The translations under genes and the position numbers were made by a program. Under the pieces are notes generated by a model. That model was not told where the DNA came from. It was given only the letters and a program-made list of their open reading frames with translations, and did not search any database. This document shows, piece by piece, positions 30,161 to 48,696 of a stretch of 64,000 nt of DNA. Position 1 is the stretch's first letter. Each line of letters starts with the position of its first letter. The DNA is taken from the NCBI GenBank assembly GCA_944332455.1, contig CALVJY010000009.1, positions 1 to 64,000 of the forward strand. Reading direction: 5' to 3'. This stretch comes from an uncultured Clostridia bacterium (GTDB taxonomy: Bacteria > Bacillota > Clostridia > Christensenellales > HGM11417).

Positions 30161-30211
30161 GCGAACGCACCGGAAAGACCCGTCTCTCCCGCCGAGAAAC
30201 AAAGAGAAAAT

Positions 30212-30375
30212 CGTCTGCCGGCAGGTCTCCTGGCTTTCACGGCCGTGTTCCCCGCAGCCTTCCCGGTTTTCCCAGTGGCATGTTGCGGCGGCCGTTTGAC
30301 AGTAGCGGGGGCTGCGAGGCTTGAACCTTCTTCCCTCCGGCGCAAAACGCCGGCCTTTCGGCTCCGTCAGACGTC
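30212..30375 (-). promoter_or_regulatory. Cobalamin (B12) riboswitch
   Basis: Minus-strand aptamer with canonical blocks in order: GAGGGAAGAAGGTTCAAGCC, GCAGCCCCCGCTACTGTCA, GCCACTGGGAAAACCGGGAAG and the B12 box AAGCCAGGAGACCTGCCGGC. The ends CGTCTG and CAGACG pair as the closing P1 stem. A terminator hairpin follows about 50 bases downstream. Confidence 0.95.
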
Positions 30376-30418
30376 TGTAAAGAGCGGCGGGACAACCCTT
30401 CTCGCTCGTTGTGCTCCT

Positions 30419-41120: not shown

Positions 41121-41337
41121 ATTTGCCTAGCGGCGGTTTTATTTGCCTTCGGCAAGTTATATTTGCCTGACGGCAAGTTTTATTTTGCTGTCGCAAAGTG
41201 TTATTTCTCCCTTCGGGAGAAGTTGTGGACTTATCCGCAACTTTGGCCAGGGGCCAAAATATCACGCAGGCCTGCATATCACTTTCAGCCGTAAGGCTGA
41301 AAATATAACTTTGACGGTAAGTCAAAATATAACCACG
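41121..41337. repeat. Hairpin array 1
   Basis: A run of short perfect hairpins joined by ATATCAC/ATATAAC-type linkers. Order on the plus strand: TTGCC-TTCG-GGCAA type, TTGCC-TGAC-GGCAA, TTTGC-TGTC-GCAAA, TTCTCCC-TTC-GGGAGAA, GTTGTGGACTTATCCGCAAC, TTGGCC-AGG-GGCCAA, GCAGGCCTGC, TTTCAGCC-GTAA-GGCTGAAA, TTTGAC-GGTAA-GTCAAA. It is in the 3' region of the lipoprotein gene at 41621 and before the thioesterase promoter. No protein is encoded. Confidence 0.9.
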
Positions 41338-41392
41338 TTTGAGGCGCTCCTTGAACGCCCGAAACCTGTGACCGCGGATCAAAATATAACCG

Positions 41393-41610
41393 AGTTTTAT
41401 TTGCCTTCGGCAAGTGATATGCCTTCGGCGTGTTATTTTGCTTCGCAAAGTTTTATTTCTCCCTGTGGGAGAAGTTGTGGTTTTATCCACAACTTTGGCC
41501 AAAGGCCAAAATATCACTTTCAGCCGCAAGGCTGAAAATATCACTTTGACGATAAGTCAAAATATCACTTTGGCCAAGGGCCAAAATATAACTTTGACCT
41601 TTGGTCAAAA
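41393..41610. repeat. Hairpin array 2
   Basis: Same stem order as array 1 with different loops: TTGCC-TTC-GGCAA, TGCC-TTC-GGCG, TTTGC-TTC-GCAAA, TTCTCCC-TGT-GGGAGAA, GTTGTGG-TTTT-ATCCACAAC, TTTGGCC-AAA-GGCCAAA, TTTCAGCC-GCAA-GGCTGAAA, TTTGAC-GATAA-GTCAAA, then an extra TTTGGCC pair and a TTTGACC pair. The central hairpin contains a perfect TTATCCACA (41483-41491). It begins about ten bases past the stop codon of the lipoprotein gene at 41621. Confidence 0.9.
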
Positions 41611-41620
41611 TTCCCCCCTT

Positions 41621-42316
41621 TCAGCTCTGGCTCTGGATCTCCGTTCCCCCCTCCCGGACGTCGTAGAGCACGGCGAACATGCCGCCCTGGCGGTCGCAGA
41701 TCAGCACGTGCCAGAACAGTTTCCCATCCGGGCGCTCGGCCAGCCGGACCTGGATCTCGCAGGCATACTCCCCGTTCTGCAGGGTGCCGGCCAAAGGCTC
41801 GGCCAGATCGGCCAGGCCCTTGCGGAAGGCCTCCTCCATGGTCATGTCCCCCTCCTGCCGCAGGGTGCGGACGGTCACGTCCTCGTCATAGTGCTGCCCG
41901 GTGACGTTGATCTGGGCGGCCCCGGACGACAGGTCGGCCTCGGGAATGTCGGCGGCGTACTGCCCGTTGTAGGGGTGGCGGGCCAGCACGGCGGTAAAGG
42001 TCTGCCCCCCGGCCGCCAGTCGGGCGGTCAGTTGGTCGGCCTCCTCGGTGTCGAACTTGGGGGTGACGATGACCAGACAGTAGGCCGTCAGCGGATTGGC
42101 GGTCCCGTCCAGCGCATAGGGGTCCTCCCGCTGGCCCAGATAGACGGTGATCGAAAAGTGCTCGCTCTCCCCGACCAGAACGTCTTCCCGGGTCTCGGAG
42201 AGCACTTTGCGGGGCTGCGCGTACTCGTCTCCGCAGGCCTGCAGAAGGCCCAGCGAGACCAGCGAGAGCAGCGCGACCCACAGAATGACAGAGAGGCGGC
42301 GGATGTGTTTCAGCAT
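41621..42316 (-). CDS. Uncharacterised lipoprotein
   Basis: A 231-residue lipoprotein of unknown function. The signal peptide (MLKHIRRLSVILWVALLSLV-like) ends in lipobox LQAC. The mature part is a single mixed alpha/beta region without a family I recognise; it starts with a short charged stretch (DEYAQPRKVL). The ATG at 42316 follows AAGGGGAAG. The gene is monocistronic in appearance: hairpin arrays begin right after its stop codon. Confidence 0.8.
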   Translation of the reverse strand: MLKHIRRLSVILWVALLSLVSLGLLQACGDEYAQPRKVLSETREDVLVGESEHFSITVYLGQREDPYALDGTANPLTAYCLVIVTPKFDTEEADQLTARLAAGGQTFTAVLARHPYNGQYAADIPEADLSSGAAQINVTGQHYDEDVTVRTLRQEGDMTMEEAFRKGLADLAEPLAGTLQNGEYACEIQVRLAERPDGKLFWHVLICDRQGGMFAVLYDVREGGTEIQSQS

Positions 42317-43002: not shown

Positions 43003-43461
43003 TCAAATTACTGTGAGAAACAAACGGACCCTTCTGTAGTGCCACAGAGTAGAAGAACTGTCCGCTGAACAACGAATCATATAGGTTCCTCGGTCTAGGA
43101 TACTTTCTACCTTATGTTGCTTTCCGTTCAAATCCGTATATAAATATGACTCAATTTCAAATACATTGGGGCCGGAATGATCCGGAGAGACCCACGTAAG
43201 CTTCCCTTGCAAACAATAAGCGTCCACAATGATTCTGAATGCCTTGCCGGTGTATTCGATCTCATCGTGGATCTCATCCGTACCGACCGGGAAAACCCAC
43301 GTCCGAGAGGTAGACTCAGTATAAGGCGGTATTGTCCGAGTGGTGCTTTTCAGCCGAATGCTGACATCTCTTTTCCCGTCACACCCGGCAAGCGGCAGAC
43401 AGACCGCCGACAGCAGCAGCGCCACCGCCAGCAGGCTGACCGCCCGTTTCAATGCTTTCAT
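43003..43461 (-). CDS. Uncharacterised lipoprotein, copy 2
   Basis: A 152-residue lipoprotein (lipobox PLAGC, Cys27) of unknown function. It is a tandem paralogue of the next gene upstream (43487-43921). Signal peptides are nearly identical (MKALKRAVSLLAVALLLSA), while the mature parts match only in pattern: RLK/RLG...W-FPVGTdEIHdEIeYTGk, a Tyr-rich middle and ...STLWHxRxxRLxxTV at the end. The mature part is AT-richer than the signal peptide coding region. The C-terminal strand-rich domain is not recognised. Confidence 0.75.
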   Translation of the reverse strand: MKALKRAVSLLAVALLLSAVCLPLAGCDGKRDVSIRLKSTTRTIPPYTESTSRTWVFPVGTDEIHDEIEYTGKAFRIIVDAYCLQGKLTWVSPDHSGPNVFEIESYLYTDLNGKQHKVESILDRGTYMIRCSADSSSTLWHYRRVRLFLTVI

Positions 43462-43486
43462 GTTTCCCTCCTCCTCTTTTGATGTT

Positions 43487-43921
43487 TTAAACTACTGTGA
43501 TGTACAGGCGAATTGTTCTCGCATGCCATAAAGTACTCTCTGAAGCTGCTCTGCAATAAAATATATAACTCCCTTTGCCTGGAATGACGCGTGGCTCACT
43601 TTGCTGTCCGCTTTCATCCGTAAAGAGGGACGAAGTATAAAAGACATTTTTCCCCTGTGGAGCAAACCATTGGGCTTCTCCATGGAAGCGATAGCCCTCC
43701 ACAAAAATCCGGATCTCTTCACCGGTGTAAGTGATTTCCGTGTGAATCTCTTCAGTCCCGACCGGAAAATCCCAGTGTCGGAATACCCAACCGCTTTCGG
43801 TTTCAGCGCCCAACCGGATGACGATATCTTTTTTCCCATCGCACCCGGCAAGCGGCAGACAGGCCGCCGACAGCAGCAGCGCCACCGCCAGCAGACTGAC
43901 CGCCCGTTTCAATGCCTTCAT
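43487..43921 (-). CDS. Uncharacterised lipoprotein, copy 1
   Basis: A 144-residue lipoprotein with lipobox PLAGC (Cys27). It shares with its downstream neighbour the signal peptide almost base for base, and weakly the mature domain (DFPVGTEEIHTEITYTGEEIRIFVEGY; ESTLWHARTIRLYITVV). A strong promoter lies 65 bases upstream, and the downstream copy starts 25 bases after its stop, so the pair is one transcript. Function is unknown. Confidence 0.75.
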   Translation of the reverse strand: MKALKRAVSLLAVALLLSAACLPLAGCDGKKDIVIRLGAETESGWVFRHWDFPVGTEEIHTEITYTGEEIRIFVEGYRFHGEAQWFAPQGKNVFYTSSLFTDESGQQSEPRVIPGKGSYIFYCRAASESTLWHARTIRLYITVV

Positions 43922-43983
43922 GTTTCCCTCCGCCTTTGAAGTCAGCACACGGGCGGCCGTTCCGGTCTCCCCTTGCTGCTCTT

Positions 43984-46812: not shown

Positions 46813-47033
46813 AAGCACACGACTTCGCAAGTAAGGTTCGTGTGCTCTTTAACCTTCGGTCAAATTGATATTTTCAGCCTTGCGGCTGAAAGGTTAAATT
46901 TTGGCCTTCGGCCAAAGTTGTGGATAAATCCACAAACTTCTCCCGCAGGGAGAAATAACACTTTGCGACAGCAAAATATCACTTGCCGTCAGGCAAATAT
47001 AACTTGCCGTCAGGCAAATATAACTTGCCATAG
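46813..47033. repeat. Hairpin array 3
   Basis: On the minus strand it shows the same stem order as arrays 1 and 2: three TTGCC hairpins, TTTGC-TGTC-GCAAA, TTCTCCC-TGC-GGGAGAA, GTTTGTGGATTTATCCACAAC, TTTGGCC-GAA-GGCCAAA, TTTCAGCC-GCAA-GGCTGAAA, TTTGACC-GAA-GGTTAAA. A terminator-like GCACACGA/TCGTGTGC stem closes it at 46815-46845. The central hairpin contains TTATCCACA (complement of 46919-46927). It starts about 20 bases past the phosphohexomutase stop codon, in the gap 46604-47055, which has no gene. Confidence 0.9.
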
Positions 47034-47055
47034 GCAAATAAAACTCGTTTATTGC

Positions 47056-48696
47056 TCAGGGCCGGACGAGGGTGGCCAGCTCCTTTTGGCAGCGGTCGAA
47101 CAGGGCGGCGTTCTGCGCCCGGTTTCCCCTGGCAAAGGCGTAGACCTTGACCAAAGGCTCGGTGCCGGAGGGCCGGAAGGTCAGCGTCAGCTCCTCGGTC
47201 CGGAAGCGCAGCACGTCGGCCGGCGGCAGACCGTACAGTCCCCCGGCAAAGTCCTCGGCCGATCGCACGGGAGCGCCGCAGAGGTCGGCCGGCGGATCTT
47301 TGCGGAGCCTTTCCATGACCCGGATCCGGTCCTTCTCCCCCTCGGCCCCGGGGAAGTCAAAGGAAAACAGGCGCTGTTCGAAACAGCCGTGGCGCTCGTA
47401 CAGCTCATCCAGCCGTTCGGCCAGGGTGGTCCCCTCCCGCGCGGCCCGGGCGGCGGCCTGGCAGATCAGAAAGCAGGCCAAAACCCCGTCCTTGTCCCGG
47501 ACGTTCAGGCCGGAAAGGTAGCCGCAGCTCTCCTCGAAGCCCAGCACGAAATCGGCGGCCCGGCCCTCCCGCTCGAGGGCGGCCACGCTCTCGCCGATGT
47601 ACTTGAAACCGGTCAGCACCTCCCGGACCTCGCCGCCGAAGGGCGCGGCGATCGGCCGTACCAGATCGCCGGTGACGATGGTCTTGATCAGCACCGGGCG
47701 GGCGGTCAGCGTTCCGGCCTCCTGCCGGGATCTCAGCAGAAATTCGGCCAGCAGGGCGCCGACTTCGGCCCCGGACAGCCGGGTCAGGCGGCCCTTTTTC
47801 CGGGCAAACACCCCCACCCGGTCGGCATCGGGATCGGTGGCCAGCACCAGATCGGCCCCCGCTTGTTCCCCGGCTTCCACGGCCGGGCGCATGGTCTCGT
47901 CCAGCTCGGGATTGGGCCTGGGGCAGGTGGGGAAACGGCCGTCCGGAAGGCTCTGCGCCTTGCAGAGGGTCACATTCGCCCCGAACCGGCGCAGCAGCGC
48001 GGGGACCAGCCGCCAGCCCGCTCCGTTCAGGGGGGTGTAGAGCACCTTCAGCCCCGCAAAATTTTCGTACGCCTGCGCGGCGATGTCGTCCAGATAGGCC
48101 TGTTCCAGCGCCTCGGGGATTCTTTCGAACAGGCCCGCCCTTTCGGCCTCGTCCAAGGGCTGCCGGGGAAGGGAAAAGCCGTCCTCCCCCTCCATGGCCG
48201 CGGCGATGGCGGCGGCGTCCCCCTCGGTGATCTGGCAGCCGTCCGGGCCGTAGACCTTGAAGCCGTTGTAGGGGGCGGGGTTGTGGCTGGCCGTGATCAT
48301 CACGCCGGCGCCGGCCCCTTCCGCCCGCACCGCAAAGGACAAAAAGGGCGTGGGCAGCAGTTCCCGGCCCATCAGCACCCGGATCCCCCGGGCGGTCAGC
48401 ACCTCGGCCGCGGCCCGGGCGAACTCGGCGGAATGTTCCCGGCTGTCGTAGCAGACCACCGCCTTTTTGATCCCGATCCAGTCGGCCACGCCGGCCGCCG
48501 CCCGGCGGATGTTGACCACGTTCATGGCCCGGGTCCCGGGGCCCATCAGTCCCCGGAGCCCGCCCGTTCCGAAGCGGAGATCGGCGAAAAAGGCGTCCTC
48601 GGTCTCCTGCGGCGTCATCCGCCTTAAGGCCTCCTTCAGCTCGCCCTCCTCCAGCTTTTGCAGCCATTCCTCTCTTTTTTTGCAGGCTTCGCTCAT
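47056..48696 (-). CDS. Alpha-D-phosphohexomutase (phosphoglucomutase/phosphomannomutase)
   Basis: A 546-residue phosphohexomutase of the PgcA/PMM2-like long type. Domain 1 has FGTGGLRGLMGPG and the active-site serine loop VMITASHNPAPYNGFKVYG; domain 2 has the metal loop ATDPDADRVGVFA; domain 3 has LGFEESCGYLSG; domain 4 has the phosphate-binding FRPSGTEPLVKVYA. It swaps phosphate between C1 and C6 of hexoses. Lying behind GH130 genes, it can carry mannose-1-phosphate to mannose-6-phosphate. Glucose-1-phosphate may also be a substrate; the family cannot be separated by eye. The start is 12 bases past the upstream gene. Confidence 0.93.
   Translation of the reverse strand: MSEACKKREEWLQKLEEGELKEALRRMTPQETEDAFFADLRFGTGGLRGLMGPGTRAMNVVNIRRAAAGVADWIGIKKAVVCYDSREHSAEFARAAAEVLTARGIRVLMGRELLPTPFLSFAVRAEGAGAGVMITASHNPAPYNGFKVYGPDGCQITEGDAAAIAAAMEGEDGFSLPRQPLDEAERAGLFERIPEALEQAYLDDIAAQAYENFAGLKVLYTPLNGAGWRLVPALLRRFGANVTLCKAQSLPDGRFPTCPRPNPELDETMRPAVEAGEQAGADLVLATDPDADRVGVFARKKGRLTRLSGAEVGALLAEFLLRSRQEAGTLTARPVLIKTIVTGDLVRPIAAPFGGEVREVLTGFKYIGESVAALEREGRAADFVLGFEESCGYLSGLNVRDKDGVLACFLICQAAARAAREGTTLAERLDELYERHGCFEQRLFSFDFPGAEGEKDRIRVMERLRKDPPADLCGAPVRSAEDFAGGLYGLPPADVLRFRTEELTLTFRPSGTEPLVKVYAFARGNRAQNAALFDRCQKELATLVRP

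Follow-up and report, generated by a model that had tools for sequence, protein, structure and literature searches.

The window analyzed here, the whole 64,000-nucleotide stretch from an uncultured Clostridia bacterium, carries three arrays of short hairpins, two near 41 kb and a third, array 3, at 46813 to 47053 (minus strand), with a gene stop codon (47056 to 47058) at its near end. Its GCC-rich arm (46955 to 47044, minus strand) has linkers of the form GTKWTAT, as read on that strand, at 46955, 46976, 46997, 47018, and 47038, with hairpins at 46962 to 46975, 46983 to 46996, and 47004 to 47017 and an imperfect TTGCC hairpin at about 47025 to 47036. The center (46900 to 46954, minus strand) has no linkers, and its TTCTCCC, TTGTGGA(TTTA)TCCACAA, and TTTGGCC hairpins directly abut. 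The opposite arm (46848 to 46899, minus strand) contains TTTCAGCC and decayed TTTGACC hairpins, and its linkers are decayed as well. At the far end, the array is bordered by a terminator-like hairpin, AGCACACGA...TCGTGTGCT (46814 to 46847, no strand assigned).

Array 1 (41136 to 41333, plus strand) has the layout LLLL-center-RRRR and is enclosed by imperfect inverted sequences, AGCGCCTGAAACG at about 41096 and CGTTTGAGGCGCT at about 41337. Array 2 (41394 to 41609, plus strand) has four left linkers, the center GTTGTGG-TTTTAT-CCACAAC, and four right linkers. All three arrays have the same plan, a linker-less center between two mirror-image arms in which heptamers separate the hairpins, with one arm decayed in array 3. 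The original prediction held that array 3, read on the minus strand, has the stem order of the pair at 41 kb read on the plus strand, and the sequence bears this out. On the minus strand, array 3 runs TTGCC (three times), TTTTGC, TTCTCCC, TTGTGG, TTTGGCC, TTTCAGCC, and TTTGACC, and the order common to the three arrays is TTGCC, TTTTGC, TTCTCCC, the TTGTGG..CCACAA center, TTTGGCC, TTTCAGCC, and TTTGAC; moreover, 75-nt arms of arrays 1 and 3 are 96% complementary. Array 3 contains 8 perfect-stem hairpins and arrays 1 and 2 together contain 15, whereas shuffling leads one to expect 1.4 (maximum, 5) and 3.4 (maximum, 10), respectively. The minus-strand RNA fold of array 3 has a z score of -9.9, with 0 of 200 shuffles as low.

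The genes adjoining arrays 2 and 3 both lie on the minus strand, and the flip of the element relative to its gene is real: the TTTGAC end of array 2 lies 11 nt from the minus-strand stop at 41621, while it is the TTGCC end of array 3 that lies 11 nt from the stop at 47056. The direction assigned to the element holds for the stem sequences but not for the linkers, in which the arms are roughly mirror images, so that the stem sequences alone make the element directional. As a result of this mirroring, a transcript from either side reads GUKAUAU-type linkers first and AUAUMAC-type linkers second. Within the center hairpins of arrays 2 and 3, a perfect DnaA-box-like TTATCCACA is seen at 41483 and 46919; it is not kept in other families and was taken as chance. 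A GC-rich spacer, GGCGCTCC.TGAACGCCCGAAAC, is common to the window (about 41334 to 41380) and to two other loci, L006 (about 860 to 960) and L010 (about 1590 to 1690), and, lying between or within arrays of this genome, looks like a separate module.

To map copies genome-wide, the genome to which the window belongs (2.35 Mb in 53 contigs) was searched, and 17 array matches at about 10 loci were found, so the array is not a private repeat. Across the order, three spaced copies of GTKATATT occur in 28 of 297 genomes; a reversed-pattern control was silent except in genome G005, and this genome and G043 were dropped by eye as unlike hairpin arrays, leaving 26 array genomes. These are scattered over many families, often with sister species that lack arrays. 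The family is apparently undescribed, patchily spread, mobile, and given to settling at gene ends.

Comparison among genomes shows that the constant part of the arrays is the 7-nt linker rather than the stem, as stems vary freely between genomes. The TTGCC arm uses GTKATAT (or GTKTTAT) and the opposite arm uses ATATMAC, the center has no linkers around it, and arms most often contain four (93 of 151). A model in which left and right linkers pair strictly like a zipper (GTG with CAC, GTT with AAC) was discarded, as many arrays, judged by eye, break the rule. Often, the center carries, in reverse-complement form, the outermost linker and the 5' half of the outermost hairpin (L246, L248, L270, L313, L044, and L211), so that a single arm could close on itself as a large loop. 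Such apparent copying of the outermost 5' arm into the center is striking in single arrays (genomes G246, G015, and G224 and locus L246); a swap test between genomes gave a mean of only 7.5 versus 6.7, a weak contrast because many arrays match in the linker only.

Arrays in related genomes are intergenic. When 47 arrays with clear neighbors were set against a background of 58 array-free gaps in the same loci, none of the arrays fell in a gap between divergent genes (0/47 versus 23/58), and 25/47 lay between convergent genes (versus 8/58). This agrees with the earlier claim that the arrays are seated behind stop codons. The further claim that placement is independent of gene direction is supported, as copies lie across the genome and the flip is seen, with one nuance: one-armed arrays behind stops are oriented, with GTKATAT on the coding strand in 20 of 23. 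In genome G243, the order is stop codon, three heptamer-spaced hairpins, intrinsic terminator. One-armed arrays of that genome (L068, L110, L116, and L120) follow genes that are paralogs of one another, which looks as though each gene had been duplicated along with its array.

Mobility was assessed at one locus of genome G149, compared within its genus. Its flanking genes have counterparts of 73 to 75% identity in G123, and the 101-bp syntenic gap there contains an ordinary terminator but no array. The array unit of ~320 bp is nevertheless present at many other G123 sites, mostly at 82 to 89% identity, and recurs at 87% identity in G187, which belongs to another family; in this one clade, the unit is thus closer between species than the genes are (82 to 89% versus 73 to 75%). 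The proposed comparison of syntenic gaps for presence and absence with clean junctions thus yields a case of presence and absence in a related genus, with the unit recurring elsewhere; the empty site lies between diverged species and so leaves no clean junction and no target duplication to be read.

The ~320-bp unit has sharp ends. Outside these, every copy has an inverted repeat of its own in the flanks, with A and T runs, which is an intrinsic terminator split by the unit. After a first test was swamped by A/T runs, a second one weighted for G+C detected split terminator stems in 12 of 15 copies; of 210 control pairings of mismatched flanks, 7 gave such stems (permutation P ≤ 5e-5). A T run is present in 13 of the 15. 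The split terminators were demonstrated in one clade (G149, G123, G012, and G187). In other clades, arrays begin at the T run of an intact terminator, and the terminator-like hairpin neighboring array 3 of the window is likewise intact.

An all-against-all comparison of array-adjoining genes yielded ABC ATPases, short-chain dehydrogenases, and a ~118-residue protein common to several genomes. The last of these is the only non-generic family recurring near arrays, in five genomes, and it matches PF05635 (E values of 1e-27 to 1e-29) and TIGR02436 (1e-31 to 1e-33). The gene lies between the arms in G012 (L158), G058 (L191), and G271 (L109) and beside arrays in G085 and G258. PF05635 is present in 23 of 26 array genomes versus 53 of 271 others (P = 2e-12, an optimistic value, as related genomes are not independent). 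A PF05635 gene was not matched in three array-bearing genomes, namely, that of the window (a 94%-complete assembly), G208, and G243. The predicted structure is a four-helix bundle (mean pLDDT, 95) that matches 2rld (BT_0352; TM score, 0.92) and 2gsc. A relative with a solved structure is reportedly pentameric, going by the title of its publication, and we know of no catalytic site in the family. Travel with the arrays suggests a job for this protein, known as "four-helix bundle" or 23S rRNA intervening-sequence protein. Elsewhere, a CRISPR survey places PF05635 among genes near CRISPR adaptation modules (PMC10910872); the arrays themselves are not CRISPR arrays, as the units between their repeats are palindromes and not unique non-palindromic spacers. 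Relatives of PF05635 are also encoded at 17 loci on viral contigs (L325 to L341), some with flanking repeat arrays (L325, with 15 copies of ATTTCAC, L333, and L335).

Around PF05635 genes elsewhere, inverted arrays are built on other heptamers: ACATCAC, ACATCAT, ACTTCAY, ATTTCAY, ATTTAGC, CAATTCAT, and ATCATAAC. Inverted shared 7-mers surround the gene at 20 of 84 loci, compared with 0 of 84 in direct orientation, 14 of 2,000 for mismatched loci, and 3 of 177 for neighboring genes. When the eight heptamer labels were placed on a tree of 51 PF05635 proteins, 8 changes sufficed, where the minimum is 7 and the shuffled mean 33.4 (0 of 200 as low); about half of the PF05635 loci (52) have no assignable heptamer array, and the control-gene set for assignment is small, with 3 of 23 positive. 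Host phylogeny does not explain the match of heptamer and clade, because family f17 holds three heptamer/protein pairs and one pair spans many families. Such congruence is expected from joint inheritance too and so shows one element rather than binding. Some PF05635 genes (L219, L235, L239, L236, and L243) are flanked by plain inverted tandem heptamers, such as GAATTCA or GCGGAAT, with no hairpins.

Taken together, these results make it probable that the arrays are a dispersed, terminator-targeting mobile element of a new class, partnered with PF05635, whose way of moving we infer. The cis part would consist of near-perfect hairpins parted by a heptamer, in two mirror arms (typically of four heptamers) around a linker-less center. 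The PF05635 protein may bind the heptamers, while the hairpins, as single-stranded or extruded DNA, would keep these in register. The protein-array complex might then seize a terminator hairpin, which is a structured DNA target too, by its loop or end; the element would be copied or pasted there, with the chemistry of cutting and joining perhaps falling to host enzymes. Insertion at terminators would let the element build up harmlessly behind stop codons. Copies in the window genome are read as non-autonomous or orphaned, because no PF05635 gene was found in its 94%-complete assembly. A bolder reading, which we hold as possible but rather doubtful, makes PF05635 alone the mobility factor of a large class of selfish DNA, recognizing heptamers, whether hairpin-spaced or plain tandem, and inserting them at terminator hairpins with no need of a known transposase or reverse transcriptase.

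A 3' untranslated region element that acts at the level of RNA, as a stabilizer, processing signal, or scaffold for protein binding, and that has no separate means of moving would account for the strong RNA fold and for the coding-strand bias of the one-armed arrays behind stops (GTKATAT in 20 of 23). The hairpins argue against it. Among 323 distinct oriented hairpins, chosen by GTKATAT-type linkers and so all carrying them, stems are near perfect, with 36 non-Watson-Crick among about 1,690 pairs (13 G.T, 16 A.C, and 7 others); G.U wobble thus makes up about 0.8% of pairs, and these stems have no RNA-type wobble signature, that is, no G.U-over-A.C bias. Among the loops, read on the ATATMAC strand, c(GNA)g and c(GNNA)g predominate, and the third base of the GNNA loops is more often a pyrimidine than a purine (45:29). 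RNA GNRA loops need a purine at this position, and d(cGNAg) and d(cGNNAg) are unusually stable DNA hairpins. The loop preference fits extra-stable DNA mini-hairpins better than RNA GNRA loops, and indirectly favors a hairpin that acts as DNA on the ATATMAC strand; literature on the d(GCGAAGC) mini-hairpin is cited in PMC10527192. The patchiness, the presence and absence at a syntenic site, and the tie to PF05635 accord with a mobile element instead, and no Rfam family matches the arrays, the only match in the window above the gathering score being a cobalamin riboswitch (30203 to 30383, minus strand, 78.7 bits). We therefore regard a purely RNA-level role as unlikely.

A retroelement is an improbable alternative. 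Like its structural relative Avd, PF05635 would then assist a reverse transcriptase, and this enzyme would write array RNA into terminators in the manner of group IIC introns. This reading draws on the match of the predicted fold to the retroelement accessory protein Avd (4dwl; TM score, 0.79) and to a diversity-generating retroelement complex (8ube; TM score, 0.74), and group IIC introns are known to target stem-loop DNA (PMC10190682). Yet an RVT_1 gene is absent from 9 of 15 array genomes tested (G012, G058, G102, G019, G149, G224, G258, G271, and the window genome). As these include very rich genomes, a retro-mechanism is unlikely as a requirement, and a reverse transcriptase as a required partner was rejected.

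REP/BIME-type palindromes mobilized by RAYT, a Y1 HUH transposase, would work alike, being interspersed, intergenic, and arranged as mirror images, and the window genome has two truncated IS200-like Y1 genes. This explanation is nonetheless very hard to credit, as no Y1_Tnp (PF01797) gene occurs in the array-rich genomes G012, G058, G102, G015, G019, G149, and G224, the family is not enriched among array genomes (6/26 versus 103/271; P = 0.14), and the linkers are GTKATAT-type 7-mers, not GTAG-type tetranucleotides; RAYT/Y1 as the partner is largely refuted. The two Y1 genes of the window genome (L039 and L040, on C2 and C6) start identically but differ in their ends, which are broken. Slippage that multiplied degenerate intrinsic terminators of several hairpins would explain why arrays touch terminators in many genomes but is just as implausible, given that single hairpins have no T run after them, that the linker is conserved in sequence across families, and that stem order is kept between arrays.

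The proposed PF05635-partnered element can be placed among known systems, of which REP/RAYT is the closest in working and the 23S rRNA intervening sequences (IVSs) are the closest by protein. REP/BIME with RAYT (REPIN) is likewise dispersed, intergenic, and palindromic with mirror arms, and has a protein gene linked to some copies and many copies without the gene. Here, in contrast, PF05635 takes the place of the Y1 HUH protein and 7-nt linkers that of GTAG, stems vary freely within one array, and the sites are terminators. IVSs share the S23/PF05635 open reading frame, which is found in related elements and not in the window genome, and their mobility, by a mechanism not yet known, has long been suspected (PMC4990558). 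Unlike the arrays, which lie between or at the ends of protein genes and have heptamer/hairpin arms, IVSs interrupt 23S rRNA genes and are excised by RNase III.

Intergenic heptanucleotide repeats such as TAACTGA occur in Beggiatoaceae, Cyanobacteria, and Bacteroidetes, and their author proposed an unknown repeat-binding mobile protein (PMC4679880). They resemble the arrays in their 7-nt units, intergenic and patchy distribution, and suspected dependence on a repeat-binding protein, but are plain tandem, often upstream of start codons, and described with no mention of PF05635. Plain inverted repeats of the heptanucleotide type also flank several of the present PF05635 genes (L235, L239, and L219), and plain inverted heptamers at PF05635 genes are a possible key to these unexplained repeats. 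Group IIC introns also insert at stem-loop DNA targets and prefer intrinsic terminators, but no ribozyme was found in the arrays, and reverse transcriptase is missing from the 9 of 15 array genomes noted above.

PF05635/TIGR02436 is widespread in bacteria and has solved structures (2rld and 2gsc), but no function is known for it; intergenic heptanucleotide repeats are abundant yet lack an explanation, and the mobility of IVSs has been suspected for decades with no mechanism. The present finding ties the three together and offers a candidate substrate, as every PF05635 clade is paired with a heptamer array of its own. Were PF05635 alone the mobility factor, this would explain both the abundant bacterial heptanucleotide repeats and the spread of IVSs. 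Papers open to our search, which did not extend to subscription papers and preprints, included none linking PF05635 to repeats. Apart from the arrays, the window has a neighboring pair of small lipoprotein-like genes whose 125-nt starts (43351 to 43475 and 43811 to 43935) are 90% identical, a tandem duplication.
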